Shown here in pieces: positions 39,292 through 60,499 of a DNA stretch of 64,000 bases (its first letter is position 1; every line of letters begins with the position of its first letter). Source of the DNA: Occultella glacieicola (lineage in GTDB: Bacteria > Actinomycetota > Actinomycetes > Actinomycetales > Beutenbergiaceae); NCBI RefSeq assembly GCF_004353825.1, contig NZ_SMNA01000011.1:62001-126000 (forward strand). Reading direction: 5' to 3'. The notes under the pieces were generated by a model. It was given only the letters and a program-made list of their open reading frames with translations. It did not search any database and had not been told where the DNA came from. Both the position numbers and the translations under genes were made by a program.

Positions 39292-39314
39292 TTGATTCCC
39301 GAATCAATCTTGAC
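39292..39314 (+). promoter_or_regulatory. Shared island operator, copy 1 (upstream of FAD oxidoreductase 1)
   Basis: Inverted repeat TTGATTC-CC-GAATCAA followed by TCTTGAC, where TTGACA at 39310-39315 looks like a -35 box. Copies 2 (41698-41720) and 3 (51916-51938) have the same length and agree at 17 of 23 columns, with an identical final eleven bases TCAATCTTGAC. A bound repressor would cover the -35 region. The start codon is 192 bases downstream, leaving a long leader. Confidence 0.85.
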
Positions 39315-39505
39315 AGCATGGACAACCCGCATATCTACTCGGTACATAGTTGCGACCGTGCCACCTTGCCCTTCTGTCACATCGGCGGCGCGGCCGGGCG
39401 CATTCTGCGCAAGCAGTAGCAGCGGGTCGATGTTCGGCACTTCGTTCGGAAGGTTCCACCGAAGAGCAGTCACTACTCGCTCACGAGACATCTGGGAGAA
39501 CACAC

Positions 39506-41697: not shown

Positions 41698-41720
41698 TTG
41701 ATTGCCCGATCAATCTTGAC
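41698..41720 (+). promoter_or_regulatory. Shared island operator, copy 2 (upstream of heparinase 1)
   Basis: TTGAT-N6-ATCAA followed by TCTTGAC, aligned without gaps to copies 1 and 3. A further TTGACT at 41739-41744 and the flanking CAACTGG/CAGCTGG sequences add partial half-sites. 149 bases before the heparinase start. Confidence 0.85.
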
Positions 41721-41868: not shown

Positions 41869-43833
41869 ATGGCGAAGCATCTACTCTTCGGCACCTCATA
41901 CAGTCGGCGGACTGCACTGAAGGTGGCCGCAGCGGCGTCCGCCGGTGTCGCGTCCGGGCCACAGGCGCAAGCCTGGACTCACGGGTCCGGTCCAAGCAGG
42001 ACCGACGACTCCCATCCGCGTCTCCTCGCGAGGCCCAGCGACTTCGACGCAGTGGCCTCTCGCGTCGTCACGGACGAGGTATCCCAGGGATGGTTCAGCA
42101 CGCTGGAGGAGCTCGGGACGGAGTTGTTGGCGGTACCCACGCCGACCTTCCCGAACGGCGCAAGCCTGCTCAACACCGCCAGAACTGCCGTCAATCGCAT
42201 CTACACACTCGCCCTGCTCGAGCAACTCGCCGCCGACCCCTCCTACGCACAGCGCGCGCGAGCTGAGATCGCGGCAATCGCGGAGTTTCCTCAATGGAGC
42301 CGAACGAACCCACCGAAACTCGCCGACGACTTCCTCTCGGTTGCGGAGATGACCCACGCGATGGCAATCGGGTACGACTGGCTGTTCCACACCATGAGCG
42401 ACGACGAGCGTGCCGATGCCCGCGAAGCCATCATTGAAAAGGGGCTGCGCACAGCCCTGAACGCCTACCGGGAAGATTCGATCTACACCGGTTCACCAAA
42501 CAACGTCGGGATCGTCACCAACGCTGGATTCGGTGTGGGGGCACTCGCCATCGAGCCAGAGTCGCCCTTGATCGCACGGGACATCCTGCGCAGGAGCCTG
42601 CACTGCATCCGACCAGCCGTCCAGCAGCTCAGCCCCGACGGGAGCAGCCCCGAGGGCGGCTATTGGGGATATGTCATCAGGTACCTCGGCATCTACCTCG
42701 CAGCACTGGAGTCCTCTGGCGTCCGCGATAACGGGATCTCACAAACCGTCGGGCTGTCCGAAACAGGAAACTATGCGATCTACCTGACCGGTCCCGCGGG
42801 GCAGTTCTTCAACTACTCGGACTCCGATCCAACGTCGCAGCAGCCTCCGGAACTGCTGTGGCTCTCTGAGCGGTACTCGAATCCCGTCTACACATGGTGG
42901 GGCAGCCGGAGCCGGTCGACGAGCACCCTCTACCTGCCCCGCTACTTGTTGTGGTACGACCCCAGCAAGGACGTCGGTCCGCTCGAGTCCGACCTGCCAC
43001 TCGACATCCATTTCGCCAGCGTGGAGGTTGCAACCTTCCGCAGCGCGTGGGAGGACCCGGACGCCCTGTTCGCCGGCTTCAAGGCGGGCGACAACGCCAG
43101 CAGCCACGGTGACCTCGATCAGGGCACCTTCGTCATCGATGCGAATGGGCGCAGGTGGGCGACAGAACTAGGCAAGGACAGTTACGGCCTTTCCGGCTAC
43201 TTCGACTACGGCGGTGGCAGGCGCTGGAACTACTATCGCAAACGCGCCGAGGGCCAGAACACCCTGGTCATCAACCCGACCTCGGCACCCGACCAACTCC
43301 CCAACGCCTCCTGCCACATCTCCCGCTACGAGTCATCCGCCGCCGGCGGATACGCGATCGCGGACCTCACCGGTGCAGTCCCCGGAGATGCGGTCACGTC
43401 CTGGCAGCGCGGCGTCGCCATGGTCGACCAGCGTCGGCGCACCCTGGTGCAGGACGAGGTGACTCCGAACGGTCACATCACGGCGTGGTGGTTCATGCAC
43501 ACGACCGCACAGGTAGCGGTCTCCGAGGATGGCCGGTCCGCATCGTTGACCATGGCGGATGAGGACGGCGGCAACCCCGCCACTCTCCTGGTCCAGATGG
43601 TGTCCGCTCCCCCGGACTCGGCATTCACGGTTCGTGCTGCAACACCACTTCCGACGTCTCCCACCCCCCAGGGACAATCGGCGAACGCAGGCGTCTCGAA
43701 ACTCACGATCGAACTGGCGGCTGATGACGCGTTCACGCTGGCGGTGCTCTTCAGCCCGATCACCGAGCCGGCCAACCCGGATTTGACGACTCCCAGCGTC
43801 GTCGCGCTGCATGATTGGTCGACGGACATGTAA
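41869..43833 (+). CDS. Heparinase II/III-like polysaccharide lyase 1, Tat-exported
   Basis: 654 residues from an ATG with GAAGGAG upstream. The signal peptide has twin arginines (SRRTALKVAAAASAG). An alpha/alpha toroid covers about residues 50-340 (FLSVAEMTHAMAIGYDWLFH, GSPNNVGIVTNAGFGVG, SSPEGGYWGYVIRYLG). The beta-sandwich follows with the metal/catalytic region FKAGDNASSHGDLDQGTFVIDANGRRW and RWNYYRKRAEGQNTLVINP. Probably cleaves an acidic polysaccharide outside the cell; the PL family cannot be named by eye. No carbohydrate-binding module, unlike the other two copies. Driven by operator copy 2. Confidence 0.9.
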   Translation: MAKHLLFGTSYSRRTALKVAAAASAGVASGPQAQAWTHGSGPSRTDDSHPRLLARPSDFDAVASRVVTDEVSQGWFSTLEELGTELLAVPTPTFPNGASLLNTARTAVNRIYTLALLEQLAADPSYAQRARAEIAAIAEFPQWSRTNPPKLADDFLSVAEMTHAMAIGYDWLFHTMSDDERADAREAIIEKGLRTALNAYREDSIYTGSPNNVGIVTNAGFGVGALAIEPESPLIARDILRRSLHCIRPAVQQLSPDGSSPEGGYWGYVIRYLGIYLAALESSGVRDNGISQTVGLSETGNYAIYLTGPAGQFFNYSDSDPTSQQPPELLWLSERYSNPVYTWWGSRSRSTSTLYLPRYLLWYDPSKDVGPLESDLPLDIHFASVEVATFRSAWEDPDALFAGFKAGDNASSHGDLDQGTFVIDANGRRWATELGKDSYGLSGYFDYGGGRRWNYYRKRAEGQNTLVINPTSAPDQLPNASCHISRYESSAAGGYAIADLTGAVPGDAVTSWQRGVAMVDQRRRTLVQDEVTPNGHITAWWFMHTTAQVAVSEDGRSASLTMADEDGGNPATLLVQMVSAPPDSAFTVRAATPLPTSPTPQGQSANAGVSKLTIELAADDAFTLAVLFSPITEPANPDLTTPSVVALHDWSTDM

Positions 43834-44058
43834 CGGGCTCTCATTCTGGCTCGCAGGTGCGTCGCCGGGCAGCTCACCGAGGTCACCACGGGGCGACCGA
43901 ACTGCCGCCCAGCACCTACACAATTCTGCTCCGACAGAAGTCCCTCGGAACTCACCGCAGCGATCAGCACCAACCGCGGTCGGCAAGCGTATGCCGGTCA
44001 TCGGTCCGTGTTGACGCGCCCTCCTAGACCGCTCCGCACACAAGATTCGGGAGTACCC

Positions 44059-45684
44059 ATGCAGCACCCATCCTTCGACCGACGCACTTTCCTCCTGGGA
44101 GCGGGCGGAGCCCTCACTCTCGCAGCCTTGCCAAGTTGCTCCACCGGCGGCACTGGTTCCGAAGCTCCGACGACTGACAACAGTGGCGTCGAGCTACCCT
44201 CCTACATCCCCTCGACGGGTGTTAAGCCGGACCTTCAAGGTACGCCGGAGGGCGTGCCGGACGGGTTCTTCAACTACCCCGCCGATCAGCATCGTTCCGT
44301 CACCGAAACACCGGGGGCGGGTGAGTCGATCAGCGGGATGGCGATGATCTCCACGGCGGTCCCGCCGACCCGATCCGAGAACGCCTACTGGCGAGAGCTG
44401 GAGGACCGGCTCGGTGTATCGCTCGACCTGATGATGACCCCGTCGGCCGATTACGATCAGAAGTTGGCCACCGTCGTTGCAGGCGGCGACATCCCTGACA
44501 TGGTTCAGATTCGGGATGCCCCGGATCTTCCTCGACTGCTCGAGTCGCAGTTCCAAGACCTGTCCGAGTACCTCTCCGGCGATGCGATCCAGGACTACCC
44601 GAACCTGGCCACCTTGCCGCCTCTGACGTGGCGGGGGGCCATCTACAACGGTGGCATCTACGGCATCCCGAATCCACGGCAGGCGATCGGGAGTTACGTG
44701 TTCGTACGCCAGGACATCTTCGACTCGCTGGGGCTGTCGACCGAACCCGAGAACCTTGATGAGTTCCTCGAGACCTGTCGCGCGCTCACCAACGCCCAGG
44801 AGAACAGGTGGGCGATGGGCGATTCCGGATCGGCGGCTGCGCTCGTGATCATGGGCATGTTGTCCGGAGTGCCGAACGAATGGCGCAACGAGAACGGCTC
44901 GCTCACCCATAAGTACGAGACGGACGAGTTCGCGCGTTCGGTCGAATGGGTTACGCAGCTCTGGCAGGACGGCTTGATGCACCCGGATACGTTCGCGAGC
45001 TCCGACACGAGTGGTCAGTGGTTCCATGCGGGCCGAACCGGGATCTGGCTGACGGGCAACGGACACTGGAACAGCGCATTGAAGAACCATCCGACGTCAG
45101 AGCTCGGACTGATGACCCTGCCGAACTGGGATGGTGGCGGCCTCGCACCGTGGCGGCTCGGGTCAGGCTTCTTCTCGATCAATGCCTTCAAGAAGGCCGA
45201 ACCCGAGCGAATCAAGTTGCTGCTCCGGGTCTGCAACTGGCTCGCTGCTCCGTTCGGCAGTGAGGAGAACTACCTCCGCGCGTATGGGCTGGACGGCGTT
45301 CATCACACCGTCGACGCCGATGGGAATCCGACTCTCACCGAGTTGGGTCAGGCAGAGCTGCGGCTCCCGGTCAGTTATCTGGCGGCGCCGCCGACTCCGC
45401 TGTACACACCCGGGCGGCCCGACGACACGAGGGTCCAGCATGCCTATCAGTCCGAGGTGATTCCCGTGGGCGAGCCCAACCCGGTGATCGGTCTCTACTC
45501 GGCCACGGACGCCGACGACGGGGTCAGGCTGAAGCAGACCTTCGACGACGCCGTCAACGACATCATCACTGGCCGGGCGACCATCTCCACACTCACCGAG
45601 TCCGTGGACGCGTGGAAGCGCGATGGAGGCGACGCGATGAGGGCCGAGTACGAGGAACAACTCGCCGCCTACCCGATCGACTGA
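44059..45684 (+). CDS. Extracellular solute-binding lipoprotein (LplA/YtcQ type)
   Basis: 541 residues from an ATG with CGGGAG upstream. Tat motif DRRTFLLGAGG and a lipobox ending in PSC anchor it outside the membrane. The class 1 sugar-binding protein fold is visible (YWRELEDRLGVSLDLMM, VVAGGDIPDMVQI, SYVFVRQDIFDSLGL). The long size and partner permeases match the LplABC/YtcQP group that binds oligosaccharides. The ligand is probably the oligosaccharide released by the neighbouring heparinases. Confidence 0.9.
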   Translation: MQHPSFDRRTFLLGAGGALTLAALPSCSTGGTGSEAPTTDNSGVELPSYIPSTGVKPDLQGTPEGVPDGFFNYPADQHRSVTETPGAGESISGMAMISTAVPPTRSENAYWRELEDRLGVSLDLMMTPSADYDQKLATVVAGGDIPDMVQIRDAPDLPRLLESQFQDLSEYLSGDAIQDYPNLATLPPLTWRGAIYNGGIYGIPNPRQAIGSYVFVRQDIFDSLGLSTEPENLDEFLETCRALTNAQENRWAMGDSGSAAALVIMGMLSGVPNEWRNENGSLTHKYETDEFARSVEWVTQLWQDGLMHPDTFASSDTSGQWFHAGRTGIWLTGNGHWNSALKNHPTSELGLMTLPNWDGGGLAPWRLGSGFFSINAFKKAEPERIKLLLRVCNWLAAPFGSEENYLRAYGLDGVHHTVDADGNPTLTELGQAELRLPVSYLAAPPTPLYTPGRPDDTRVQHAYQSEVIPVGEPNPVIGLYSATDADDGVRLKQTFDDAVNDIITGRATISTLTESVDAWKRDGGDAMRAEYEEQLAAYPID

Positions 45685-45786
45685 CCAGGGAGGCAATGCG
45701 ATGAGACGCCCAGTGATGGGACACACTGACCTCGGCATCGAGATCTCGCAACCGAGGACGACGATACGGCCAACGCGGGGGTCACG

Positions 45787-46782
45787 ATGGTGATCGTCAA
45801 AACCGCTCCGAACGCGGGTGGACGAGAGCAGATGACGAGTTCCCGTGGCCCCAGTCCTTCAGAGCAACGCCGTGGACGGCGCCGTGGTCGCTGGCGGCGG
45901 GACAGGTTACTGCTGTTGTTGGGTCTGCCGGGGCTCGCGGTCGTAGTGCTGTTCAACTACGTTCCGCTTCTGGGGAATGTCATTGCCTTCAAGGACTATG
46001 TGCCGTATGTCGGGATTCTCGAGTCTCCCTGGGTGGGCTGGCAGAACTTCCAAGTCATATTCAATGGGGATCCGGAGTTTCTGACGGCGCTGTCGAACAC
46101 GTTGATCATCTCGCTCGTGCAGATTGCATTCGTGTTTCCGGTACCCATCGCGCTCGCACTGCTGCTGAACAGTCTGGTCAGTGAACGAATCAAGCGCGTG
46201 GTGCAGTCGGTTCTGTACCTGCCCCACTTCATGTCGTGGGTGGTCGTCGTCGCGATCTTCCAGCACATGCTCGGAAACGCTGGACTGTTGAACAGCTGGC
46301 TACGCTCGCAAGAATTGGTCACACTCCCGATTATCGGCAACCCGGACCTGTTCATCGGGCTCATCACGTCGCAGGTGATCTGGAAGGATGCCGGTTGGGG
46401 CACGATCATCTTCCTGGCGGCGTTGTCCAACATCGACGTGCAACTGTATGAGGCGGCCGCGGTCGACGGCGCCAGTAGGTTAAGGCAGCTGTGGCACGTC
46501 ACCCTGCCGGGAATCCGGAGTGTGATCTTCTTGATGCTGATCCTCAAGCTGGGTGACGTACTGACCGTCGGTTTCGAGCAGATCCTGCTGCAGCAGGGTC
46601 CGGTCGGACTGCATGCGTCAGAAGTGCTGGATACCTACGTGTATCGGAACGGCGTCCTGAGCGGCGACTGGGGCGTGGCCGCGGCCGTCGGCCTGGTGAA
46701 GGGCCTCGTCGGAGTGATGCTGGTTCTTGGCGCCAACAGGCTGGCCCACGTGTTCGGCGAACGAGGGGTCTACTCACGATGA
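45787..46782 (+). CDS. ABC transporter permease, LplB type
   Basis: 331 residues; a start at 45832 is also possible. A basic hydrophilic N-terminus of about 35 residues is followed by six membrane helices, and the EAA loop reads YEAAAVDGASRLRQLWHVTLPGI. The family features VLFNYVPLLGNVIAFKDY and VLYLPHFMSWVVV are present. First of two overlapping permeases. Confidence 0.92.
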   Translation: MVIVKTAPNAGGREQMTSSRGPSPSEQRRGRRRGRWRRDRLLLLLGLPGLAVVVLFNYVPLLGNVIAFKDYVPYVGILESPWVGWQNFQVIFNGDPEFLTALSNTLIISLVQIAFVFPVPIALALLLNSLVSERIKRVVQSVLYLPHFMSWVVVVAIFQHMLGNAGLLNSWLRSQELVTLPIIGNPDLFIGLITSQVIWKDAGWGTIIFLAALSNIDVQLYEAAAVDGASRLRQLWHVTLPGIRSVIFLMLILKLGDVLTVGFEQILLQQGPVGLHASEVLDTYVYRNGVLSGDWGVAAAVGLVKGLVGVMLVLGANRLAHVFGERGVYSR

Positions 46783-47699
46783 GAGCCAAGATCATTCCCG
46801 GGCGACCGTCGACGGCGCGAAGCACAACTGGTGCGATGGCCCCGCCAAGTCCGCTGATGCGTGGCTCCAAGGGACTCCTCCTGATGCTGTGCTGCGCCGT
46901 GGTCATCGTCCCATTCCTTTCGGTGGTCTCCACCAGCCTGGCAAGTCCGGCGGAGGTCACGGCCGCCGGCGGGTACGTGCTCTGGCCATCGCAGCCAAGC
47001 CTGGATGCCTACCGAGCGATCTTTGCCGGAGGGGTGGTCACTCGTGCCTTGCTGGTATCGGTCGGGATCACAGTGGTGGGCACCACACTCTCGCTGGCCT
47101 GCACGACCCTCTTGGCCTACTCCCTCAGCCGCCCGGGCTCGTTCGGTAGCAAACCCGTGCTGATGATCGTGCTGTTCACGCTGCTGTTCAGCCCGGGCAT
47201 GATCCCCATGTACCTGCTGATCAAGCAGCTTGGGTTGCTCGACTCCTACTGGTCGCTCATTTTGCCTGGCCTCATCAGCGGATTCCTCGTGATCATCATG
47301 CGCGGGTTCTTCCTTGACCTCCCCGGGGAACTGTTCGACGCAGCGCGTATCGACGGCGCCAATGAGGTGCAGACCTTGCTGCGTATCGTGGTGCCGCTGT
47401 CGAAGGCGGTGATGGCCGTGGTCGGCCTATTTATGGCTGTGGCCTATTGGAACGCCTTCTTCAGCGCATTGCTGTACATCAACGACACAGACAAGTGGCC
47501 GCTACAGCTCGTGCTGCGAAGTTACGTCGTGAACGATACCCCGGTCGGCGCAGAGGGCTTCGTTGGGGAGGTCGCACCTCCCCAACAATCCCTGCAGATG
47601 GCGATCCTCGTCGTCAGCCTGATCCCGATCGTCCTCGTCTACCCGTTCCTGCAACGCCATTTTGCCAAGGGCATGCTCATCGGCGCCGTCAAGGGGTGA
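46779..47699 (+). CDS. ABC transporter permease, LplC/YtcP type
   Basis: 306 residues, overlapping the previous gene by ATGA. Six helices; EAA loop ELFDAARIDGANEVQTLLRIVVPLSKAV. Family features LFSPGMIPMYLLIKQLGL and PLQLVLRS are present. No ATPase gene is nearby, which is usual for this class because a shared MsmX/MsiK-type ATPase serves many importers. Confidence 0.92.
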   Translation: MRAKIIPGRPSTARSTTGAMAPPSPLMRGSKGLLLMLCCAVVIVPFLSVVSTSLASPAEVTAAGGYVLWPSQPSLDAYRAIFAGGVVTRALLVSVGITVVGTTLSLACTTLLAYSLSRPGSFGSKPVLMIVLFTLLFSPGMIPMYLLIKQLGLLDSYWSLILPGLISGFLVIIMRGFFLDLPGELFDAARIDGANEVQTLLRIVVPLSKAVMAVVGLFMAVAYWNAFFSALLYINDTDKWPLQLVLRSYVVNDTPVGAEGFVGEVAPPQQSLQMAILVVSLIPIVLVYPFLQRHFAKGMLIGAVKG

Positions 47700-47861
47700 G
47701 CGTCAAAACCGCGACGTGCAATCGGACCGGCGCCGCGGCAAGCCTTCCTGGGCGAACGCCGGTGATGAGCCCGTCTGGTGCCGCCCTGGTCCGGGCGACG
47801 GCCCCGATGTGTCCCAGGGCGTGCACTCACACACCGCAACCATCCCGATGGAGGTCCCACG

Positions 47862-50633
47862 TTGGAGTCAGACTCGAAGAACGGTCGGGAGGTCGCGCAG
47901 CATCCGCGGCTCTTCGGCAGCGACCTTTCTCATGTTCAGGAGCTGATCCTCGACGACGATCGTTCGCGCGGCTGGTACCGCAACGTCGAGCAGCAAGCCG
48001 AACAGCTCCTGTCCACGCCTGCTTGTGAGTACCTGATTCCCGATGGCAAGCGTCTACTGGACACGAGCAGGGAGGTCCTCCGGCGAACCTATTTGCTAGC
48101 GCTGGCACACCATGTCTCGCGTCGAAAGGAATTCGCCGACCGACTCTGGCTGGAATTGCTGACCGCGTCGCGATTCTCCAACTGGAACCCAAGCCACTTC
48201 CTCGACGTGGCGGAGATGGCTCACGCTTTTGCAGTCGGATACGACTGGCTGTACGAAGAGTGGGACGCCACCCAACGAGAGCACCTCGAGCACGCAATTG
48301 TGATGCACGCTCTGCGCCCTGGACTCCAGGCGTACAGGGAAGCTCATCGATGGACGGTCCGCACTAGCAATTGGAATCTTGTGTGCAACGCCGGCCTCCT
48401 GATGGCGGCTCTGGCCATCGCCGACGTGCACGGTAATCTCGCACAGGAGGTGATCGACGCGGCGATGGCGTCCATGGCCCGGGCGGTCGCTGTGTACGGC
48501 CCGGACGGCGCCTACCCCGAAGGCCTGGGCTACTGGAGCTACGGCACCCAGTACCTCGTCTTGGGCCTCGCCGCGTTCACGACTGCGACGGGCATGCCTG
48601 AGCAGCTCAGTTCCGTGCCAGGTCTCGACCGCACGGCGAGATTCGCCGTCCACGTCACTGGTCCCCTGGGGTTGGCGTTCAACTACTACGACGGCGCGGC
48701 GCGCGTCACGGTGCCGCCGGCTGGTTTCTGGCTCGCGCGCCGCTTCGACGATGGCTTGGCGGCCGGGTTGGCAGCCCAAGGCGCCGATGAGCTGCTCACG
48801 GACTGGGATCAGCTTCCGACCAGCCTGCTGTGGTACCGGCCGAGGTCAGAGGTCGATCCCGCAACAGCAGGCGAGCCACTCGACTCCTACTTCCGGGCAT
48901 CGGAGGTCGTCACCATGCGCAGCGCGTGGCAGCAGCGAACTGCGGTGTGGCTGGCAGGCAAGGCTGGCGACAACGCAACCCCGCACGGCGACCTAGACCT
49001 GGGTACCTTCGTACTCGATGCGCTGGGCACCCGTTGGCTGCACGACCTCGGGTGGGACAACTACAGCCTGCCGGGGTACTTCGACTTCACGGGAGGTCAG
49101 CGCTGGACCTACTACCGCAAGCGCACCGAGGGACACAACACGCTGGTGGCCAACCCAGACGCCACCGGGGGCCAGTCGTGCTCGACGACTCTTGGCGAGG
49201 CGGCCGGGACGGGAACCGGGGCTGTGATCGCACATCAGAGCAACGCTTCGGAGGCCTACGTCGTGCTCGACTTGACCAGTGCCGATCCCGCGTACCGCTC
49301 CTGGAAGCGTGGATGGCGCCTGTTCGACTTCCGCAGGCAGGTGCTCCTGCAGGACGAAGTCACCCTGCACGAAGCCGGCGAGGTCTGGTCGTTCCTTCAC
49401 ACGTCGGCGCAGATCGACATTGCCGACGACGGGCGAGGCGCCGTGCTCCGCGACGGGCCCAAGCGCCTAATCGTGCGACTGTCGGATCAGACTCCGGGTC
49501 TACTCGTGGAAATGGAAGCCACCCCGATGTGGACCTCGCCCGCCCCTCGGGGACAGAGCACCAACACGGCGATACGGAAACTCGCGCTACGGGTCTCAGT
49601 CGAGGGTCCGGTCACCCTCGTCGTCCAATTGTCACCAGTAACCGAGCACGAGCCAGTACCCCCACCGACCTCGGTGATGCCGCTTGCGAACTGGACTGTG
49701 AGCACCGAACCCGTCGCGCAACTGGAGCGCCTCGCCATCGACGGAGAAGACGTTCCCGGGTTCTCACCAGAAGTTTGGAGCTACGAGATCCCCGCATCGC
49801 AGATCGGACAAATCCAGGCGACTGCTCCCGCCGGCAGCACCGTCGACCAAATCCGCGAGCCCGGAGGCGATGTCGTGCTCGACGTCCACGCTCGAGGTGC
49901 CCGGACCGGCAGTTACCGACTCCGACGACTCCTCGATGACTCTCCACAGGCGATGACCTCGCCGATCTTCGCGAGAAGTGACGACGGGAACGTCGCCGCC
50001 AACGCTTTCGACGGGACGGCGGACTCGTTCTGGCGACCCGGTACCGCGGGCCCCGAGTGGATCGGATGCGATCTCGGTGTCGAGACCGGGTTGGGTGCCG
50101 TCCTGATCGCTTGGCACGAGGGCGCGCGCGCTTCAGTCCAGTTCGATGTCGAACTGGCCGGAGCGGAGGGGACGTGGCAGCAAGTCTGGACCGGATCGTC
50201 CTCTGGTACAACAACAGCGGCTCAACGGGTGACCTGGCCACCGCGGAAGGCTCGTCACGTACGCATCGTGCGGCGAGATGACGGGCCCGCCTCGCTGTTC
50301 GCCGTCACCTCGATGGAGCTGCCTGGGCGCCTCCCGCGTCAACCGTCGCAGCTGCGAAGCACTGACATCCACCTTTTGGTGCCGGCCTTGCGGGCGGGCT
50401 CCGCCCAACAAGCTTCCGTTTCGTTGAGATCGCCGCAGGGAGGAATCGTCCCAAGTTCTGACTACACCGTCGAACTCATCTCTTCCGATTCCTCGGTTCT
50501 CCAGATCGCTGGTGACCGCCTGGCCCCAATCTCGCCGGGCACCGTCGTCGTGACCGCCGTCGTCCGAACCAAGGAGCGACTCCTGCTTCATCACAGCGTG
50601 AATGTGCAGGTGCAACCGCCACAGCCTGCCTGA
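47862..50633 (+). CDS. Heparinase II/III-like protein 2 with F5/8C-type module, no signal peptide
   Basis: 923 residues from a TTG with GGAGG seven bases upstream; the longer frame to 47778 has no ribosome site. The start shows no signal peptide or Tat motif, so the enzyme may act inside the cell on imported oligosaccharides. The toroid domain (FLDVAEMAHAFAVGYDWLYEEW, SNWNLVCNAGLLMAALAIADV) and sandwich (GKAGDNATPHGDLDLGTFVLDA, RWTYYRKRTEGHNTLVANP) extend to about residue 600. An Ig-like linker follows, then a discoidin/CBM32-type domain (SPIFARSDDGNVAANAFDGTADSFW) and a Big_2-like end. Export by another route cannot be excluded, as CBM32 modules are usually extracellular. Confidence 0.87.
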   Translation: MESDSKNGREVAQHPRLFGSDLSHVQELILDDDRSRGWYRNVEQQAEQLLSTPACEYLIPDGKRLLDTSREVLRRTYLLALAHHVSRRKEFADRLWLELLTASRFSNWNPSHFLDVAEMAHAFAVGYDWLYEEWDATQREHLEHAIVMHALRPGLQAYREAHRWTVRTSNWNLVCNAGLLMAALAIADVHGNLAQEVIDAAMASMARAVAVYGPDGAYPEGLGYWSYGTQYLVLGLAAFTTATGMPEQLSSVPGLDRTARFAVHVTGPLGLAFNYYDGAARVTVPPAGFWLARRFDDGLAAGLAAQGADELLTDWDQLPTSLLWYRPRSEVDPATAGEPLDSYFRASEVVTMRSAWQQRTAVWLAGKAGDNATPHGDLDLGTFVLDALGTRWLHDLGWDNYSLPGYFDFTGGQRWTYYRKRTEGHNTLVANPDATGGQSCSTTLGEAAGTGTGAVIAHQSNASEAYVVLDLTSADPAYRSWKRGWRLFDFRRQVLLQDEVTLHEAGEVWSFLHTSAQIDIADDGRGAVLRDGPKRLIVRLSDQTPGLLVEMEATPMWTSPAPRGQSTNTAIRKLALRVSVEGPVTLVVQLSPVTEHEPVPPPTSVMPLANWTVSTEPVAQLERLAIDGEDVPGFSPEVWSYEIPASQIGQIQATAPAGSTVDQIREPGGDVVLDVHARGARTGSYRLRRLLDDSPQAMTSPIFARSDDGNVAANAFDGTADSFWRPGTAGPEWIGCDLGVETGLGAVLIAWHEGARASVQFDVELAGAEGTWQQVWTGSSSGTTTAAQRVTWPPRKARHVRIVRRDDGPASLFAVTSMELPGRLPRQPSQLRSTDIHLLVPALRAGSAQQASVSLRSPQGGIVPSSDYTVELISSDSSVLQIAGDRLAPISPGTVVVTAVVRTKERLLLHHSVNVQVQPPQPA

Positions 50634-50677: not shown

Positions 50678-51871
50678 TCAGTCCTGGGTCTGCGGCCACC
50701 CACGTTCGACCGCCCGATGCGGTTCGCGCAATCGTGAGATGGTGCCCATCTCATATTCGTCGATCGCGTGCGCAATCCACCCTGCGGACCGTGCGATACC
50801 AAACATGACCTCGCTGGCACCGTGCTCCATTGATGACGAGTCGGCAATCATGCCGAGCGCCAGGTACACGTTCGGGGGCGGGAGCCGGCGACTCTTGAGG
50901 AGCGCCAGCATCTCGAACGATCGCTGAAGTCTGGCGTCTTCTGTTGCGAGCGGCTTGAGCAGCTTCAGTAGGTGGCTGGCCCTAGCGTCCCCTTGCGGGT
51001 GCTGTGGGTGCCCGAATCCAGGTAGCCGTCCTTCGTCCCGGAGTCGTGCACTCAACACGAACATGGTCCCGTGTGTGTCTCCGAAGGTGCTCAGCATTGC
51101 TTCAACGGCAGTCGCGGACGCACCGAGTACGGCACTGCTGCCCACTCCTAGCCCTGCGGCTAGAACACCGTAGAGGTCGGCGTGTGCCGACGCTGCGATC
51201 TGTGCGGCGTACGTGGACGGCGACAACCCGTGATCCGCGAGCAACACAAGGGCGGCGTTCAGGACACGGACCTGCTCCTCGTTGGGCGTGATGGTCGAAA
51301 GGCGTGACCAGAGCATGGATGCCAAATCAACATCGATCGGTTCCGATCTCTGAGGCATTGCCTCCACCAGAGTCCGCAAGAGCGGTCCCGCAGCGTGCGC
51401 AGCCGATTGGATACTGGAGTCGGAGCGAAACGGATCCGCGGCAGTGACGGCGGCAAGCATGACACGGAGCCGGTCAGAGGAGATGGTTTCCTGCGGCAAC
51501 GACGTACCCACTCGCCGGGCCACGGCCACGGATTCCGCGTTGGCCACCCATCCGACGCTCTCCTCCCACCGCCCGGTCCAGAGGAAGTGCGCCACCGACT
51601 CGAAGGGTTGCTCAACGAGTTCAGACACAGGTCTGGCCCGGTAGTGGAGCATGTCGTCCTTCAACGTGCTCAAACGGGAGGTCTTGCCAAACTCGTTGAG
51701 CGAGGGCCGACGGCCTTCCTGCAGCAATCGGTCCACGTCCTCAGGGCGAAAGTAACTGATCCTGCCATCCCGCTGCCGTGGCAATGCTCCACGGCTGACA
51801 TAGGCGTAGATCGTCTCGCGCTTGACTCCCAGCCGTGCCGCGGCCTGTGTCGCTGTCAGCAAGTCATTCAT
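50678..51871 (-). CDS. HTH-citrate synthase fusion, probable catalytically dead transcription factor
   Basis: 397 residues from an ATG with AGAGGAG upstream. Residues 1-55 are an excisionase/MerR-type HTH (LLTATQAAARLGVKRETIYAYVSRGALP). The rest is citrate synthase-like (FESVAHFLWTGRWE, DLYGVLAAGLG, LPGFGHPQHPQGDARA, FGIARSAGWIAHAIDEYE). By eye, two of the three catalytic residues are gone: the His of the usual GPLHGGA is Leu249 and the Asp of PNVDFALG is Tyr336, while the His in GFGH (288) remains. Divergent from FAD oxidoreductase 2, with operator copy 3 between them. It is the best candidate for the regulator of the three shared operators, sensing an acyl-CoA, keto acid or citrate-like ligand. 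Confidence 0.85.
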   Translation of the reverse strand: MNDLLTATQAAARLGVKRETIYAYVSRGALPRQRDGRISYFRPEDVDRLLQEGRRPSLNEFGKTSRLSTLKDDMLHYRARPVSELVEQPFESVAHFLWTGRWEESVGWVANAESVAVARRVGTSLPQETISSDRLRVMLAAVTAADPFRSDSSIQSAAHAAGPLLRTLVEAMPQRSEPIDVDLASMLWSRLSTITPNEEQVRVLNAALVLLADHGLSPSTYAAQIAASAHADLYGVLAAGLGVGSSAVLGASATAVEAMLSTFGDTHGTMFVLSARLRDEGRLPGFGHPQHPQGDARASHLLKLLKPLATEDARLQRSFEMLALLKSRRLPPPNVYLALGMIADSSSMEHGASEVMFGIARSAGWIAHAIDEYEMGTISRLREPHRAVERGWPQTQD

Positions 51872-51915
51872 CTGGGTCTCCTCTGACGTCCCGCACCCAA
51901 GATAGCGGACCATAG

Positions 51916-51951
51916 TTGATTCATGACTCAATCTTGACGCGACTTGATCAA
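51916..51951. promoter_or_regulatory. Shared island operator, copy 3, plus an extra TTGATCAA palindrome
   Basis: 51916-51938 aligns gaplessly with copies 1 and 2 (TTGATT-N6-TCAATCTTGAC). An extra 8-bp palindrome TTGATCAA follows at 51944-51951. The site is 44 bases from the HTH-citrate synthase start and 60 bases from the FAD oxidoreductase 2 start, so one bound protein could control both divergent genes. Confidence 0.85.
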
Positions 51952-51997
51952 CTCTGGTTCGCTCGCCGAGACCGAACAACACCGAAGAAGGAGCAAC

Positions 51998-53395
51998 GTG
52001 GCCGAGCAGTTGGCAACGAGTCATCACGACATCGTGATCGTCGGAGGCGGAGCAGCAGGAGTCGCCGCTGCGATCGCAGCGCGCCGCAGCGGCCTCGACA
52101 CCGTGCTAATCGAGGCAGGACCGTTCTTCGGCGGCGAGCTCGTCAGCGGATTGCCCATCGACGGCTGTCTCAACGCCCGGGGTGAGTGGATCGTTGGAGG
52201 CGTCGCACGACAGCTGTTCGACGCCGTCGAGTCGGCCGGGAGCTTTGCCCGGGCGATGTCCGACTACCGCCAGATGTGGGCGGTGTGCGTCGATCCGGAG
52301 ATGCTCAAGATGAGCATCATCGAGGCATTGGCCGAAGCCAGGGTCAACCCACGGCTGTACCTCACCAGCCAGGATGTGGTGGTACGCCGCAACCGCGTCG
52401 AGGGAATCATCGCGGTAGGAAAGGGGAAGCGCTACCTCATCACCGGAGACGTCTTCATCGACTGCACCGGCGACGGACAGTTGGCTGTCTCTGCGGGTGC
52501 GCCCTTCGAATTCGGCGGCCGAGCGGGCGAGCTGCAGCCGGTGTCACTGACCTACCGACTCACGAACGTCGACTACAGCAAGTACCTGGACTGGGTGGCC
52601 GCCGAACCGGACCTCTTCCTCCTCGCAGAGAACCCCGCCCTGGGCTACGCCGGCAAGCGCGAGGCAGCACGTGCGGCGCGAGATGGCGGGTTTCCATTCG
52701 TCGCCCTCGATGCGAACGGAACTGTCCTTGGGGACGCGATCGAGCGTGGCGCGATGGACCCCTGCACCGCGTTGTACTTGTGGCCGACATCGCCAGCGCG
52801 CAACGAAGTTGGCATGAACACCACGCGATTGTCAGGGGTCGATGGCACCAACCCCCAAGAACTGAGCGAATCCCTCTCCACCCTCACCGCCCAGATCAAC
52901 CGCTGCATCGATTTCTGCCAGAAGAACATTCCGGGCTTTGCGGATGCGCGCCTTGCCGGAATCGCACCCCGAGTTGGGGTCAGGGAGACCAGGCGCGTGG
53001 TCGGCGAGTACGTCCTCACTGAGGAAGACGTGGTCGAGGGCAAGAAGTCTGATCGCGGCGTCGCCAAGGGCGGTCACCACGTCGACATCCATGGCGAAGG
53101 CACCGCACAAGTTCGACGGGCAGTGAATGATGGCCGCTCGTACGACATTCCCTACGAGGCACTCGTGCCCAAGAATATCAAGAACGTGCTGATGGCCGGC
53201 CGGTGCCTCTCCTCTACTAGGGAGGCCAACGGCTCGGCTCGCGTCATGGGCACCTGCATGGCGACTGGAGAGGCCGTCGGCGTGGCCGCAGCAATGATGG
53301 TCGAGGCTGGTCTGCGTGATGTCCGCGAAGTCGATGTCGCGACGCTGCGCTCTCGACTCACGGCAGACGGCGCCGTCGTCGACGGCACCAACTGA
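51998..53395 (+). CDS. FAD-dependent oxidoreductase 2 (FAD_oxidored family)
   Basis: 465 residues from a GTG with AAGGAG upstream. Dinucleotide fold DIVIVGGGAAGVAAAIAARRSGLDTVLIEAG, then VFIDCTGDGQLAVSAGAPFEFGG, RVGVRETRRVVGEYVLTEEDV and a C-terminal FAD motif (NVLMAGRCLSSTREANGSARVMGTCMATGEAVGVAAAM). Cytoplasmic. A distant paralogue of FAD oxidoreductase 1 with the same operator, so the two may oxidise related intermediates. Confidence 0.88.
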   Translation: MAEQLATSHHDIVIVGGGAAGVAAAIAARRSGLDTVLIEAGPFFGGELVSGLPIDGCLNARGEWIVGGVARQLFDAVESAGSFARAMSDYRQMWAVCVDPEMLKMSIIEALAEARVNPRLYLTSQDVVVRRNRVEGIIAVGKGKRYLITGDVFIDCTGDGQLAVSAGAPFEFGGRAGELQPVSLTYRLTNVDYSKYLDWVAAEPDLFLLAENPALGYAGKREAARAARDGGFPFVALDANGTVLGDAIERGAMDPCTALYLWPTSPARNEVGMNTTRLSGVDGTNPQELSESLSTLTAQINRCIDFCQKNIPGFADARLAGIAPRVGVRETRRVVGEYVLTEEDVVEGKKSDRGVAKGGHHVDIHGEGTAQVRRAVNDGRSYDIPYEALVPKNIKNVLMAGRCLSSTREANGSARVMGTCMATGEAVGVAAAMMVEAGLRDVREVDVATLRSRLTADGAVVDGTN

Positions 53396-53568: not shown

Positions 53569-54585
53569 ATGCCGGCTGTGTTGTTTCCTGGCGACGCAGT
53601 GACGTTGGCCGTCGAGATGGAACCGCCAGAGCCGACACCCGGTGAAGTGCTCATCCGGCTCACCAAGTCCGGTGTGTGTGGCACGGATGTCCACTACTGG
53701 CGCGAGACTCCACAACAGCGCGGGCACAGACGCGACGTCGTGCCGGGACACGAGGCCGTCGGCGTGGTGGATTGCGTGGGACCGGGTGTCGTGGCATTCG
53801 GACCGGGTGATCGCGTCGTCGTCGGCATGCTCCATATCGGCTGCGGGCGATGCCGAGACTGTGCGTCCGGAAACTACTCCCATTGTCTCGACAAGCAGGT
53901 CTTGGGACGGACCCTGCATGGCTCGTACGGGCAGTACGTGTGCGTGCCCGACCGAGCGGTGTACCGACTGCCGGACGCCCTGACGGACAGCGTCGCGGTC
54001 ATGACCGCGTGCAACCTGTCCACCGCTCACTCCGCGGTGCGCAAGGCGGCCTTGTCTGCTGGCGGCAAGGTCGCGATCTTCGGACTGGGAGGGGTGGGGT
54101 TGTGCGCGCTGATGGCCGCCGCCACACACGGCGTCGAAGTCACCGCCATCGATCCCATCGCCGGTCGACGGGACATGGCAGCTTCGTTGGGCGCGACTCT
54201 CGTGAGCGACCCAGAAGACTTCCACGCCTCGCTGGCCGCCGGTCACACACGTGGCTACGACGCCACGATCGAGTGCAGTGGGCACCCAGGTGCACAAGCA
54301 GATTCGATTCGGGCACTGGTCCCCGGAGGGCGGTCCGTGGTCGTCGGCGGTGGAGGTCGGTTCACGTTCCGAGCCGAAGAACTGCTGGCACGTGAGTTGA
54401 CCCTGGTCGGCTCCTCGGTGTGCCCCGCCGATCTGTTCTACGACGTGCTGGACTTCGCTGCCACACACCATCGAGAACTTGAGGGGCTACTCGGGCCGAC
54501 GTTCGGCATCACCGACGCAGAGCAAGCCTTGCGACACTCTGCCGACGGGGGCATAGGCAAGCCGATCTTCGACTGGCCGCACTGA
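53569..54585 (+). CDS. Zinc-dependent medium-chain alcohol dehydrogenase
   Basis: 338 residues. Catalytic zinc ligands in VCGTDVHYW and PGHEAVGVV, structural zinc cysteines in GCGRCRDCASGNYSHC, and the NAD fold GLGGVGLCALMAA. Likely oxidises a sugar or polyol alcohol (sorbitol/threonine dehydrogenase-like). The ribosome site AGGTGA is moderate. About 170 bases after FAD oxidoreductase 2; a TTGATTCACGA half-site on the minus strand at 53400-53410 resembles the shared operator but is incomplete. Confidence 0.88.
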   Translation: MPAVLFPGDAVTLAVEMEPPEPTPGEVLIRLTKSGVCGTDVHYWRETPQQRGHRRDVVPGHEAVGVVDCVGPGVVAFGPGDRVVVGMLHIGCGRCRDCASGNYSHCLDKQVLGRTLHGSYGQYVCVPDRAVYRLPDALTDSVAVMTACNLSTAHSAVRKAALSAGGKVAIFGLGGVGLCALMAAATHGVEVTAIDPIAGRRDMAASLGATLVSDPEDFHASLAAGHTRGYDATIECSGHPGAQADSIRALVPGGRSVVVGGGGRFTFRAEELLARELTLVGSSVCPADLFYDVLDFAATHHRELEGLLGPTFGITDAEQALRHSADGGIGKPIFDWPH

Positions 54586-56854: not shown

Positions 56855-57184
56855 CTACTGCTTGAGCACGAGGTAGAGGTCATACTTGAACGCGGTCGCA
56901 TCGGGCCCGTCGATCCTCAGCCGCAGCCAGCCACCGAAGTGCGAGATCGGGACCCGGATGCCCTCGGCACCGGCTGGCAGCACGGCAGATGTCCCATGGG
57001 GCAGCCAGCGTCGTCCGTCTGCGGAGACCTCGACCTCCAGTGCGATCGGGTCGGGGCAGGGGACAACCGCATACAGGAACGCCGTGGCTTCCCCTGCCCA
57101 GGCGCACTCGTACGGCTCGGTGTGATGGGTGCCGGAGAAGTCGGCATGCCGCTCCAGGATCGCGGTGTGGCTCTCACGGATCAT
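56855..57184 (-). CDS. Small beta-rich protein, last gene of the SDR operon
   Basis: 109 residues from an ATG overlapping the previous stop by ATGA. Beta-strand-like pattern (ATAFLYAVVPCPDPIALEVEVSADGRRWLPHG, then RVPISHFGGWLRLRIDGPDATAFKYDLYLVL) recalls small carbohydrate-binding jelly rolls. No signal peptide and no family recognised. Conserved coupling to the three upstream genes shows it is a real gene. Confidence 0.7.
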   Translation of the reverse strand: MIRESHTAILERHADFSGTHHTEPYECAWAGEATAFLYAVVPCPDPIALEVEVSADGRRWLPHGTSAVLPAGAEGIRVPISHFGGWLRLRIDGPDATAFKYDLYLVLKQ

Positions 57185-58011
57185 CCGATAACTCCCGTCG
57201 ACAGCATCACCGAGTCCACGTAGAGGAAGGATCGGGAGTCGGTGTTCGCGTCCACCCAGAACCCGACGTTGAGCATCCCGCGCAGGTTGGGCCAGGCGGG
57301 CATAGTCAGCGGTTCGAGCGAGGCGCCGGACCAGACACGGTCGTTGCACTGGAACTCCAGGTAGCGCATCGTCGCCAGATCGAAGTCCACCCTCAGGTAG
57401 TGCCAGTTCTGTTTCGTGGCCAACTCGTTGTAACAGAGGTCCTGACGGCCGTCGGGGACGTCAGTCCACTGATCGTTTCCAAGGTGGAAGTGGGTCCTGG
57501 TCTCGGAGGAGATCGTCTGCGCGCGGCGGGGACTCGCCTTGTATTGCCATTGGTGCCGTGGCGGGCCGTCGCCGTCGGCGTTGAGGAAGCGCAGGTGCGG
57601 CATCACCCGGTGTTCGTCGTCCTGTAGGTCGAGGAAGATGCCAAAGCTGCGCACGTCACGGTCAGACAGCGTCATCGACGTCGCCTCCGGTTTGGAGGTG
57701 ACCCATCCCTCGACGCGGATCGGCTGCGCCCGCCGGAACGTCAGGCGCTTCAGGGCAACGGCGATGCTGTCGCGGCGGGCACGGGTGGCCAGTTTCATCG
57801 CGTAACTGCCATGCAGCGAGCCCGCGGTGCCGGTGTCCCACATGGTGAGGTTGCTGAGCATCGGGGGTCGGAAGTCGCGTTGCTCGGGAAGGATCGTGTC
57901 CAGCGAGCCCTCGTAGTTCCCGGTCAGCAGCGTCCAGCCCTGCAGCCCGCGGTCGAAGTCGTCGTCGAGCAGTATCTGGGATAGCGGCTCGAAGCCGTCG
58001 GCGGCGTTCAC
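57181..58011 (-). CDS. Concanavalin/jelly-roll-like protein of unknown function, SDR operon
   Basis: 276 residues from a GTG overlapping the cyclase stop. Begins DGFEPLSQILLDDDFDRGLQGW, a pattern common at the start of jelly-roll or laminin-G-like domains (a short strand with D-D-F, then GW). Aromatic-rich strands follow (HQWQYKASP, WHYLRVDFDLATMRYLEFQCNDRVW, LNVGFWVDANTDSRSFLYVDSVML). No signal peptide. It could bind or modify a glycan fragment; no catalytic residues can be named. Confidence 0.72.
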   Translation of the reverse strand: MNAADGFEPLSQILLDDDFDRGLQGWTLLTGNYEGSLDTILPEQRDFRPPMLSNLTMWDTGTAGSLHGSYAMKLATRARRDSIAVALKRLTFRRAQPIRVEGWVTSKPEATSMTLSDRDVRSFGIFLDLQDDEHRVMPHLRFLNADGDGPPRHQWQYKASPRRAQTISSETRTHFHLGNDQWTDVPDGRQDLCYNELATKQNWHYLRVDFDLATMRYLEFQCNDRVWSGASLEPLTMPAWPNLRGMLNVGFWVDANTDSRSFLYVDSVMLSTGVIG

Positions 58012-58658
58012 AGCGGAAGCAGTACGGCTCGGCTGGGCGAGGCCTCTGCCTCGGCCAGGGGCAGAGGCAGGCAGATGAGCAGGTATTCCCCGGGGTCGAC
58101 GTGGTGCAGCACGAGGCCCTCCACAACGGTGACGTCGGCGCCCAGCAACGTGTGGTGTACCGCGCGATCCGTTGAGCCGAAAGGTTCGATGGAAGGTGCG
58201 TCGATCCCGATCAGGGCGACGCCGGCGGTGACCAGCCGCTCGGCCGCCGCTCCGGAGAGCGCGCGGAAGTGAGGGTCGAACGACTCGCCTGCGCGTGCTG
58301 GCGCCGGGGTTCGCAGGAGCAGTCGCTCCTGCGGCTGCGGCTGCAGGGCGTCGATCTCGGCGGCCTCGATTGTGCCGGTCGGCGCGGCGACCTCGGCCAC
58401 CCGGCAGCGGCCGATCAGCGGTGCCAGTGACTGCCCGCCAATCCGGGCGCCTCCGGCGAGGTGGTGGTAGGGGGCGTCGACGTGGGTGCCGGTGTGGCTG
58501 TTGAGCAACCAGCTGCTGTGAGCGGTCCGTTCGCCGGGTCGATGCCTGGAGTGCCAGCGCACCTCCGGCGGGAAACGATCCTCCCACGATGCCATTCCCG
58601 GCAGGATCGGTGCGGAGATGTCGATGATCGGCCCGAGCGACGTCGAGAGTGCACTCAT
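58008..58658 (-). CDS. Cyclase family protein (kynurenine formamidase-like)
   Basis: 216 residues from an ATG overlapping the SDR stop. Metal-binding signature HTGTHVDAPYHHL in the N-terminal half, with IDISAPILPGMASW before it and GIDAPSIEPFG later, as in the cyclase/formamidase family that opens amide or lactone bonds. In this operon a lactone or cyclic sugar-acid derivative is a reasonable substrate, but this is inference. Confidence 0.88.
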   Translation of the reverse strand: MSALSTSLGPIIDISAPILPGMASWEDRFPPEVRWHSRHRPGERTAHSSWLLNSHTGTHVDAPYHHLAGGARIGGQSLAPLIGRCRVAEVAAPTGTIEAAEIDALQPQPQERLLLRTPAPARAGESFDPHFRALSGAAAERLVTAGVALIGIDAPSIEPFGSTDRAVHHTLLGADVTVVEGLVLHHVDPGEYLLICLPLPLAEAEASPSRAVLLPL

Positions 58659-59473: not shown

Positions 59474-60499
59474 ATGACCACGCTGCAAGACGTAGCGGCG
59501 CACGCCGGAGTCTCACCGATGACAGTTTCCAACGTGGTCAACGGTCGCCCCGGGGTCGCTGAGTCCACGAGGCTGCTGGTTGACGCTTCCATTCGGCACC
59601 TCGGGTACAAGCCGAACCTCTCCGCGCGACGCCTGGCCAAGGGCCGCACCGGCATGCTGACTCTCAGCATCCCCGAGGTGGAGATCCCGTATTTCGCGGA
59701 GATCTCCAGTGCGATGCTGCGGGCCGCTCTTGAGCGCTCGATGGACATCCTCATCAACCAGAGCGACTGGGACCGCGATCGCGAGCTGGATCTGATCCAC
59801 GGCTCGATGAGCCTGCTGACCGATGGAATCCTGCTCTACCCCTCGACCCTGACGCAATCCGATCTGAACGGTGCCCGTCCTGGCGTCCCGCTGGTGCTGT
59901 TCGGGGGTTCGGAGGTGTTCACCAACGTCGATCATGTGGTGATCGACAACGTCGCGGCGGCTCAGGAGGCCACCGAGCACCTGGTCTCGCTCGGGCATCG
60001 GCGGATAGCCTTGATCGGTCCCCACCTGGAGCCGAATAGCCGCAAGCCGAACGGGCGTCTCGCGGGTTACGCCCGGGCACTAGAGGTAGCACGGATCAAG
60101 CGCAGCCAGGAGCTACTGGTCAACGTGCCCACCTATCACCGGGTCGACGGCTACCGCGCGATGCAGCAACTGTTCGAACTCCCGCAGCCGCCCACCGCGG
60201 TGTTCTGTCTCAGCGACCTGCTGGCGGTTGGCGCGCTGCACGCGGCCTACGACCGCGGCGTCGCGGTTCCCGGGGAGCTATCGATCATGGGGTTCGACGA
60301 CGTCGAGGAGTCGCGGTACTCGAACCCGGCGCTCACCACGATCAAACCGGACAAGCTTGCGATCGCCAGGCACGCGCTCGACCTCATCTCCGGGCCAGGC
60401 GAGGGTTCCGAACAGAACGGGCCCCGCACCGTGATCACCAACCACGAGTTGGTTATCCGGGCAAGCACCGCGGCGCCGGGCCGCACTGCCGCCCACTGA
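59474..60499 (+). CDS. LacI family transcriptional regulator
   Basis: 341 residues. HTH with hinge (TLQDVAAHAGVSPMTVSNVVNGRPGVAESTRLLVDASIRHLGYKPNLSARRLAKGRTG) and the periplasmic-binding-type effector domain ending in SIMGFDDVEESRYSNPALTTI. Identical palindromes on both sides indicate control of the SDR operon, of itself, and of the third heparinase. The inducer is probably a product of that polysaccharide. Confidence 0.94.
   Translation: MTTLQDVAAHAGVSPMTVSNVVNGRPGVAESTRLLVDASIRHLGYKPNLSARRLAKGRTGMLTLSIPEVEIPYFAEISSAMLRAALERSMDILINQSDWDRDRELDLIHGSMSLLTDGILLYPSTLTQSDLNGARPGVPLVLFGGSEVFTNVDHVVIDNVAAAQEATEHLVSLGHRRIALIGPHLEPNSRKPNGRLAGYARALEVARIKRSQELLVNVPTYHRVDGYRAMQQLFELPQPPTAVFCLSDLLAVGALHAAYDRGVAVPGELSIMGFDDVEESRYSNPALTTIKPDKLAIARHALDLISGPGEGSEQNGPRTVITNHELVIRASTAAPGRTAAH

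Follow-up and report, generated by a model that had tools for sequence, protein, structure and literature searches.

The polysaccharide locus

The window, by which we mean the whole 64-kb stretch of DNA analysed, contains a polysaccharide locus in which the gene of a putative regulator, P0001, lies on the minus strand (50678–51871). Its reading frame, Pfam matches and predicted structure identify the product as a helix-turn-helix domain joined to a citrate synthase fold (HTH-CS); the frame starts with ATG and encodes 397 residues. On the other side of the intergenic region is FAD oxidoreductase 1 (51998–53395, plus strand; Pfam FAD_oxidored on the frame 51944–53395, likely GTG start at 51998), which matches solved structures only at E values of 7e-5 or weaker, mostly confined to the FAD-binding end. 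A Zn-dependent dehydrogenase (53569–54585, plus strand; Pfam) lies downstream and is assumed to be co-transcribed.

FAD oxidoreductase 2 (39350–40879, plus strand; Pfam FAD_oxidored, with a possible ATG start at 39507) is, like FAD oxidoreductase 1, a predicted target of the regulator. So is a run of plus-strand genes spanning 41869–50633, which begins with a heparinase II/III-like protein (41869–43833) and continues with the solute-binding protein (44008–45684) and permease (BPD_transp_1, 45787–46782) of an ABC transporter, all three assigned by Pfam, and a second permease-like frame recognised as an ORF only (46779–47699). Its last ORF is a heparinase II/III-like protein with an F5/8 type C domain (47778–50633; Pfam). 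Throughout the locus, we assumed the start codons, the transcription starts and the limits of operons. The preliminary description of this DNA had placed the gene divergent from an FAD oxidoreductase and among heparinases; the ORF layout agrees with the first statement, and the Hepar_II_III_C domains of the heparinase-like frames with the second. The locus also holds an ORF with a strong match to DUF6772 (57181–58587, minus strand, 374 bits) and a frame that reads as LacI-like (59474–60499).

Domain architecture and predicted fold

The DNA-binding domain of P0001 is of the HTH_17/MerR_1 type and occupies residues 4–53 (51713–51862, minus strand; HTH_17 at 1e-10 in Pfam). MerR_1 scores 28.3 bits against a cut-off of 21.6 and the NCBIfam excisionase domain TIGR01764 29.8 bits against 28.8, and the stretch VK..T.YAYVSRG within the domain is conserved in the HTH-CS family alignment. 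Residues 65–381 (50729–51679, minus strand) form the citrate synthase fold, as delimited by Pfam (Citrate_synt, PF00285, 1e-45) and aligned by phmmer and MAFFT. Every NCBIfam citrate synthase model listed for P0001 falls below its cut-off, the best scoring 105.9 against 332, as would also be expected of any distant relative.

An AlphaFold2 model built from 58 sequences of the window and related loci is confident (pLDDT 89.8, pTM 0.81), and in a Foldseek search the best 50 of 240 matches (E ≤ 0.001) are all citrate or methylcitrate synthases, headed by 3hwk (8.1e-14). Within Si-citrate synthase/2-methylcitrate synthase (PF00285), the nearest solved chains are 3hwk and 1ixe by fold, and 2p2w by sequence. 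The model passes from the HTH through a low-confidence linker (54–61) directly into the citrate synthase fold, and shows no long coiled-coil helix after the HTH. Members of the MerR family carry such a helix, which forms their dimer; membership of that family was therefore not adopted for P0001, although its HTH is MerR-like.

Catalytic residues are replaced, oxaloacetate-site residues are kept

In citrate synthase, H264 and D362 (E. coli GltA numbering) activate acetyl-CoA, while H229, H305 and arginines hold oxaloacetate. When P0001 is aligned with E. coli GltA (K-12 record) by MAFFT, Leu249 occupies the H264 column (codon 51125–51127, minus strand) and Tyr336 the D362 column (50864–50866, minus strand), whereas His288 retains H305 (51008–51010, minus strand). 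H229, R314, R387 and R407 likewise have equivalents, so that H214, H288, R297, R361 and R382 of P0001 correspond to GltA H229, H305, R314, R387 and R407. A phmmer alignment with the solved citrate synthase 2p2w agrees, setting 'avlgas' under 'plhgga' and 'ppnvyl' under 'ypnvdl'. The initial claims that an HTH is fused to a citrate synthase fold, and that Leu249 and Tyr336 replace the catalytic His and Asp while His288 stays, are thus borne out, the former by Pfam, the AlphaFold2 model and Foldseek and the latter by both alignments. P0001 has the fold in common with citrate synthase, along with H229, H305 and the three arginines of the oxaloacetate site, and differs by Leu and Tyr at the H264 and D362 positions and by its added N-terminal HTH.

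Conservation and selection

Among the four Occultella genomes compared, O. aeris is the only congener with an orthologue. This protein is 97% identical to P0001 and carries the same two substitutions in the same frame, by which a frameshift or sequence error is ruled out. Over 397 codons, dN/dS between the two genes is 0.061, compared with 0.14–0.27 for six other gene pairs treated identically, and we conclude that the gene is under strong purifying selection.

The absence of two catalytic residues and a long branch in the tree (see below) could suggest a decaying pseudogene or a functionless chance fusion. The dN/dS value, the identity with the intact O. aeris frame and the conservation of an inverted repeat and of predicted operators described below speak so strongly against this reading that we rejected it, and we regard its probability as negligible.

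The HTH-CS family

Other Actinomycetota, Deinococcus and proteobacteria also encode HTH-CS proteins. Matches to P0001 at E 1e-22 were found in 61 of 394 genomes of a class sample, 23 of 396 of an order sample and 41 of 396 of a phylum sample; these samples overlap and include the source genome, some matches cover part of the protein, and the sampling was even rather than exhaustive, with at most 30, 30, 20 and 20 loci taken. Relatives are also plasmid-borne in Alpha-, Beta- and Gammaproteobacteria and in Deinococcus, where 8 of 98 and 13 of 65 plasmid records were examined.

H264 and D362 are both kept in 71 of the 79 aligned HTH-CS rows, and residue loss as a general trait of the family is thereby rejected. 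The eight exceptions are P0001, its O. aeris orthologue and six proteins on plasmids of Paraburkholderia, Caballeronia and Massilia. H264 is replaced by Leu, Thr or Gln in all eight; the D362 position holds Tyr in P0001 and Ala, Ser or Phe in the burkholderial proteins, three of the six having Glu instead. All eight retain the arginine positions; among the six burkholderial proteins, three have Asn in place of H229 and one has Leu in place of H305. The idea that a citrate synthase was converted into a transcription factor needs to be divided accordingly: the fusion is common to many bacteria and the loss of residues is the rare part, so that, as far as the alignments tell, what sets apart P0001 and its O. 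aeris orthologue, and independently the burkholderial clade, is the catalytic-residue loss and not the HTH-CS fusion.

Several loci were set aside before these counts: L001, which duplicates the window gene, L008, which duplicates L037, L084 (a contig-end fragment with the residues kept) and L078, an HTH-CS that was matched by BLAST only from residue 207 and was grouped with citrate synthases; it retains H264 and D362, with Thr at position 305. L105 was also dropped, a burkholderial HTH-CS copy on an Acidovorax carolinensis plasmid (L105:3411-4729) that lies in two overlapping frames annotated as two genes; in the second piece, Leu stands at both H264 and H305 and Glu at D362.

The tree was of a quick type, with SH-aLRT support only, rooted on 7 citrate synthases and with the catalytic-residue columns included. 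It places P0001 inside the HTH-CS branch (SH-aLRT 100) and resolves the loss of H264 into two changes, one in the P0001 lineage and one in the burkholderial clade. Because the P0001 branch is long (1.32), its sister group is unsure.

A citrate synthase gene adjoins 52 of the 79 HTH-CS genes, 51 of them divergently and one tail to tail (L079). Pairing was defined by a citrate synthase match (tblastn, 1e-15) within a flank of about 1.3–1.5 kb for genome loci and 3.5–4 kb for plasmid loci, and rests on partial matches for L041 and L085. None of the 52 paired rows has lost H264 or D362, but with only two loss events this does not amount to a statistical rule, and the converse rule, that proteins lacking a partner lose the residues, was rejected since 19 unpaired rows keep them and 8 do not. 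The source genome encodes a second HTH-CS protein (L002; 37% identity to P0001) with the triad kept, divergent from a citrate synthase. It also contains two citrate-synthase-domain stretches that lack equivalents of H264 and D362, namely L006 (G000:C18:288167-288631; Tyr/Ala) and L007 (G000:C19:299390-299947; Gly/Met), which are perhaps kin of citryl-CoA lyase.

The partner citrate synthases have Glu rather than Asp at the D362 position in all 49 readable rows (one more is cut off), for example L002:2767-3966, L013:2840-4063 and L093:2794-3972, and the HTH-CS protein beside a Glu-bearing partner has Asp there. Such a pair may function as a mixed complex or a specialised enzyme.

Neighbourhoods vary within the family. 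Six unpaired genes of the tree group of P0001 (L039, L040, L054, L080, L082 and L098) are all divergent from a gene resembling homocitrate synthase, the other five being 75–82% identical to that beside L039. Pfam finds HMGL-like and HCS_D2 domains in the four such neighbours searched, and TIGR02660 scores 248 and 236 bits on two of them against a cut-off of 463, these two lying below every listed NCBIfam cut-off; neighbours of this kind are also present at L112–L116. In Deinococcus the divergent neighbour of the HTH-CS gene is a more distant HMGL-like one, and other HTH-CS genes adjoin CoA transferases, 2-hydroxyacid dehydrogenases (mostly together with MFS transporters) or citrate synthases. 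Exceptions are three plasmid relatives: L091, divergent from a DUF2332 gene, and L096 and L108, which lie downstream of VOC and MFS genes and share their strand. The placing is that of divergent regulators, and many of the neighbours handle carboxylic acids.

The enzymatic alternative can be weighed at this point: P0001 might still carry out a condensation or lyase reaction, perhaps on another substrate, besides binding DNA, i.e. be a trigger enzyme. The retained fold, His288 and oxaloacetate-site residues would suit such a protein, a catalytic ancestor is conceivable given H264 and D362 in 71 of the 79 rows, and the Glu at D362 in three of the six burkholderial proteins, being the residue of the partner citrate synthases, need not end catalysis there. 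Yet Leu and Tyr stand at the H264 and D362 positions in both Occultella species, the NCBIfam citrate synthase scores are far below cut-off (105.9 vs 332), and H264 has been lost independently in all six burkholderial proteins, to Thr, Leu or Gln, as expected if catalysis is dispensable. We consider the trigger enzyme improbable.

A palindromic core precedes most HTH-CS genes

A count of spaced dyads upstream of HTH-CS genes brought out the half-sites TTGAT and ATCAA, the count exceeding the shuffled maximum in five of six groups and tying with it (2 vs 2) in the burkholderial group without H264. The resulting palindromic core, TCAANNTTGA, occurs upstream of 65 of 77 HTH-CS genes (the window gene and its O. 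aeris orthologue being left out), as against 0.18 expected from dinucleotide shuffles of the same stretches, and in none of the 77 cases within or downstream of the gene; 'upstream' here denotes the 230 nt before the trimmed HTH start plus 20 nt. By groups, the names of which are our own, the core is found in 7 of 8 members of the P0001 clade, 18 of 20 of the Streptomyces-like group, 3 of 6 and 18 of 19 of other actinobacterial sets, 5 of 6 of a further group, the single Deinococcus gene, 9 of 11 proteobacterial genes with H264 and 4 of 6 burkholderial genes without it. It is absent upstream of 12 of the 77 relatives, including two of the six burkholderial proteins without H264, as well as the L096 and L108 genes.

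The core is thus seen in Actinomycetota, Deinococcus and Alpha- and Betaproteobacteria beside differing neighbour genes, and we take this to mean that it follows the HTH-CS regulator. The P0001 gene itself combines HTH_17 and citrate synthase domains with a core upstream (51928–51937) and a divergent neighbour, as is usual in the family.

Predicted operators in the locus and the genome

Searches with the core and a 22-bp form predict three operators in the window, all on the minus strand. The first, TCAAGATTGAGTCATGAATCAA (51916–51937), lies between the regulator gene and FAD oxidoreductase 1, 44 bp from the ATG of the former and 60 bp from the likely GTG of the latter. The second, TCAAGATTGATTCGGGAATCAA (39292–39313), precedes FAD oxidoreductase 2, at a distance of 193 bp from the possible ATG start at 39507, and the third, TCAAGATTGATCGGGCAATCAA (41698–41719, one mismatch), precedes the heparinase/ABC run, 149 bp from its first ATG. 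The core has these three sites in the window (51928, 39304 and 41710) where 0.09 would be expected, and none of 100 shuffled windows contained three; a longer form, TCAANATTGANTNNNNAATCAA, fits the same three places and nothing else in the window with up to three mismatches.

In the whole genome, the 22-bp form TCAANNTTGANTNNNNAATCAA with at most two mismatches gives five matches, two of them overlapping, at four places (C2:101292-133018), compared with one match for the backward control of the pattern. All four lie in the polysaccharide locus, three in the window and one 7 kb past its end (L133:7991-8012, G000:C2:132991-133012). This fourth predicted operator precedes by about 56 bp an ORF whose heparinase-like domain scores 23.8 bits, just under the cut-off of 24; the interval from the window end to the operator contains two further ABC permease ORFs. 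The match beside the P0001 gene is not independent, as the pattern was shaped after it had been seen; the matches at the other three places are independent. Genome-wide, the core shows no enrichment in itself, with nine places in 5.34 Mb compared with 13 for the control; four of the nine are in the polysaccharide locus and one is at the paralogue L002.

In O. aeris, four corresponding 22-bp places precede the corresponding genes, one overlapping a mechanically assigned ORF start, and one extra match with two mismatches lies outside the locus. The two congeners without an orthologue have only that extra two-mismatch sequence, which could be trivial if the lyase genes are absent there. At the paralogue L002 the operator is built with a 3-bp spacer. 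All four genomes of the genus carry it at their HTH-CS/CS pair, and three of them together hold four more one-mismatch matches elsewhere; the two paralogues of one cell thus seem to separate their sites by spacing.

Around the operator beside the P0001 gene, a repeat search reveals an inverted repeat of 60 bp (51904–51963) with 17-nt arms, of which 15 of 17 positions pair, and a 26-nt spacer. One of 400 shuffles was as good, for an arm length of 17 nt taken from the repeat itself, and 58 of the 60 bases (counted by eye) are unchanged in O. aeris.

Alternatively, a different regulator within the locus, such as the LacI-type protein encoded at 59474–60499, might bind the four sites, with the citrate-synthase-fold protein playing another role. 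A frame that reads as LacI-like is indeed present in the locus, and palindromes of TTGAT and ATCAA are simple. However, the core tracks HTH-CS genes elsewhere, with different neighbours (65 of 77), and the search of the 64-kb window found no core site at the LacI-like ORF, so that we think this very unlikely.

Read towards the target, all four operators are TTGATTnnnGAnTCAATCTTGAC, give or take a base, and end in TTGAC, a box resembling −35, which a bound protein would therefore overlap. MerR-type operators, by comparison, lie between −35 and −10 boxes with a spacer of 19–20 bp.

Proposed function

We favour, with considerable confidence, a reading in which P0001 is a one-component HTH-CS transcription factor that acts on the operators of its locus, uses the citrate synthase pocket as a sensor and makes no citrate. 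Very probably, to judge from the predicted sites, it switches polysaccharide-degradation genes via one short operator at four promoters of the locus. The original suggestion of a ligand-sensing regulator rather than an enzyme gains support from the core linked to HTH-CS genes across phyla, from the restriction of the four 22-bp places to the locus, from strong purifying selection and from a divergent placing usual for regulators. Its proposed link to a TCA-type or sugar-acid ligand is plausible in view of the kept oxaloacetate-site residues.

We infer DNA binding, a dimer, a ligand class and repression for P0001, for which the architecture, residue changes, selection, family operator and four genomic places were computed. 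By analogy with citrate synthases, the citrate-synthase-fold domain would be dimeric and carry two N-terminal HTH domains, a pair that could bind the palindromic operator at the divergent promoter shared with FAD oxidoreductase 1 and before FAD oxidoreductase 2, the heparinase/ABC genes and the outlying heparinase-like ORF. Lacking the His and Asp that activate acetyl-CoA, the protein would no longer make citrate. Because TTGAC at the target-facing end of the operator resembles a −35 box, the simplest working is that the bound dimer covers it, which would bring about repression and autoregulation, relieved (or imposed) by the ligand. Good −10 boxes were not evident by eye at three of the four targets, for which reason activation is also possible; on balance we lean towards repression with autoregulation.

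The old oxaloacetate pocket, with three arginines and two histidines, would sense a small carboxylate. That the ligand is a carboxylate appears fairly likely, since the arginines and histidines of this site are kept, and it would probably be a 2-oxo or hydroxy acid derived from the degraded polysaccharide or from central metabolism. A narrower version, in which P0001 senses citrate or oxaloacetate itself as a measure of carbon status and not a polysaccharide product, draws on the retention of five of five oxaloacetate-site residues and on relatives divergent from citrate synthase or homocitrate-synthase-like genes. The arginines would hold other dicarboxylates too, however, and the annotated burkholderial relatives without H264 sit in aromatic or other catabolic loci, which suggests pathway-specific ligands; this version therefore seems possible but somewhat doubtful.

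For the family at large, it is reasonably probable that HTH-CS proteins are phylum-spanning transcription factors with the ancestral operator TCAANNTTGA and the citrate synthase site as sensor, in which the chemistry has been dropped twice and the arginines kept. A working or near-working site in the paired proteins would read the substrates of the neighbouring condensing enzyme, while in some unpaired ones, P0001 and those of Burkholderiales, the loss of catalysis may have freed the fold to govern polysaccharide and aromatic catabolism. Many 'citrate synthase' entries may then be regulators, in which case annotation and metabolic models need correction. Annotated HTH-CS genes on plasmids are labelled 'citrate synthase', 'citrate/2-methylcitrate synthase' or 'citrate synthase family protein', and such enzyme labels are likely a widespread misannotation.

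If the reading is true, a sensor with one of the best-understood ligand sites of biochemistry becomes available, in a system of one operator sequence and four predicted promoters in one genome, with the spacer at the paralogue as an internal control. The two independent losses of a catalytic residue offer a comparison, and the heparinase-like locus gains a first handle on its regulation.

Comparison with known systems

In the open-licence PubMed Central literature, we recognised no paper on a regulator with a citrate synthase fold or on an HTH-CS regulator. Enzyme folds that serve as sensors beside an HTH, frequently after losing catalytic residues, are known from ROK repressors, MocR/GabR and Bacillus PurR, the folds of which differ from that of P0001.

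A closer parallel is SCO5831 of Streptomyces coelicolor, which we take to have the HTH-CS architecture and to form a pair with SCO5832 (citA3/citA4). In one report, both are called putative citrate synthases and MtrA is reported to bind between them (PMC12323332). The HTH-CS/CS pairs of our sample are divergent at 51 of 52 paired loci, mostly with the TCAANNTTGA core between the two genes, and keep H264 and D362 in all 52 tree rows, whereas P0001 has no partner, has other targets and has lost the residues.

The burkholderial HTH-CS proteins (BEI72755.1, WP_047824832.1, WP_244808612.1, WP_253045312.1 and two in unannotated records) resemble P0001 in having no citrate synthase partner and in the loss of H264 with the arginines kept. 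The four annotated genes are divergent from catabolic genes, these being a ring-hydroxylating dioxygenase, a ThDP enzyme, an oxygenase ferredoxin and a cupin gene followed by an HpaI-type aldolase. They differ from P0001 in their separate origin in the tree (24–29% identity), in the pathways they adjoin, and in having Glu at D362 in three, Asn at H229 in three and H305 lost in one.
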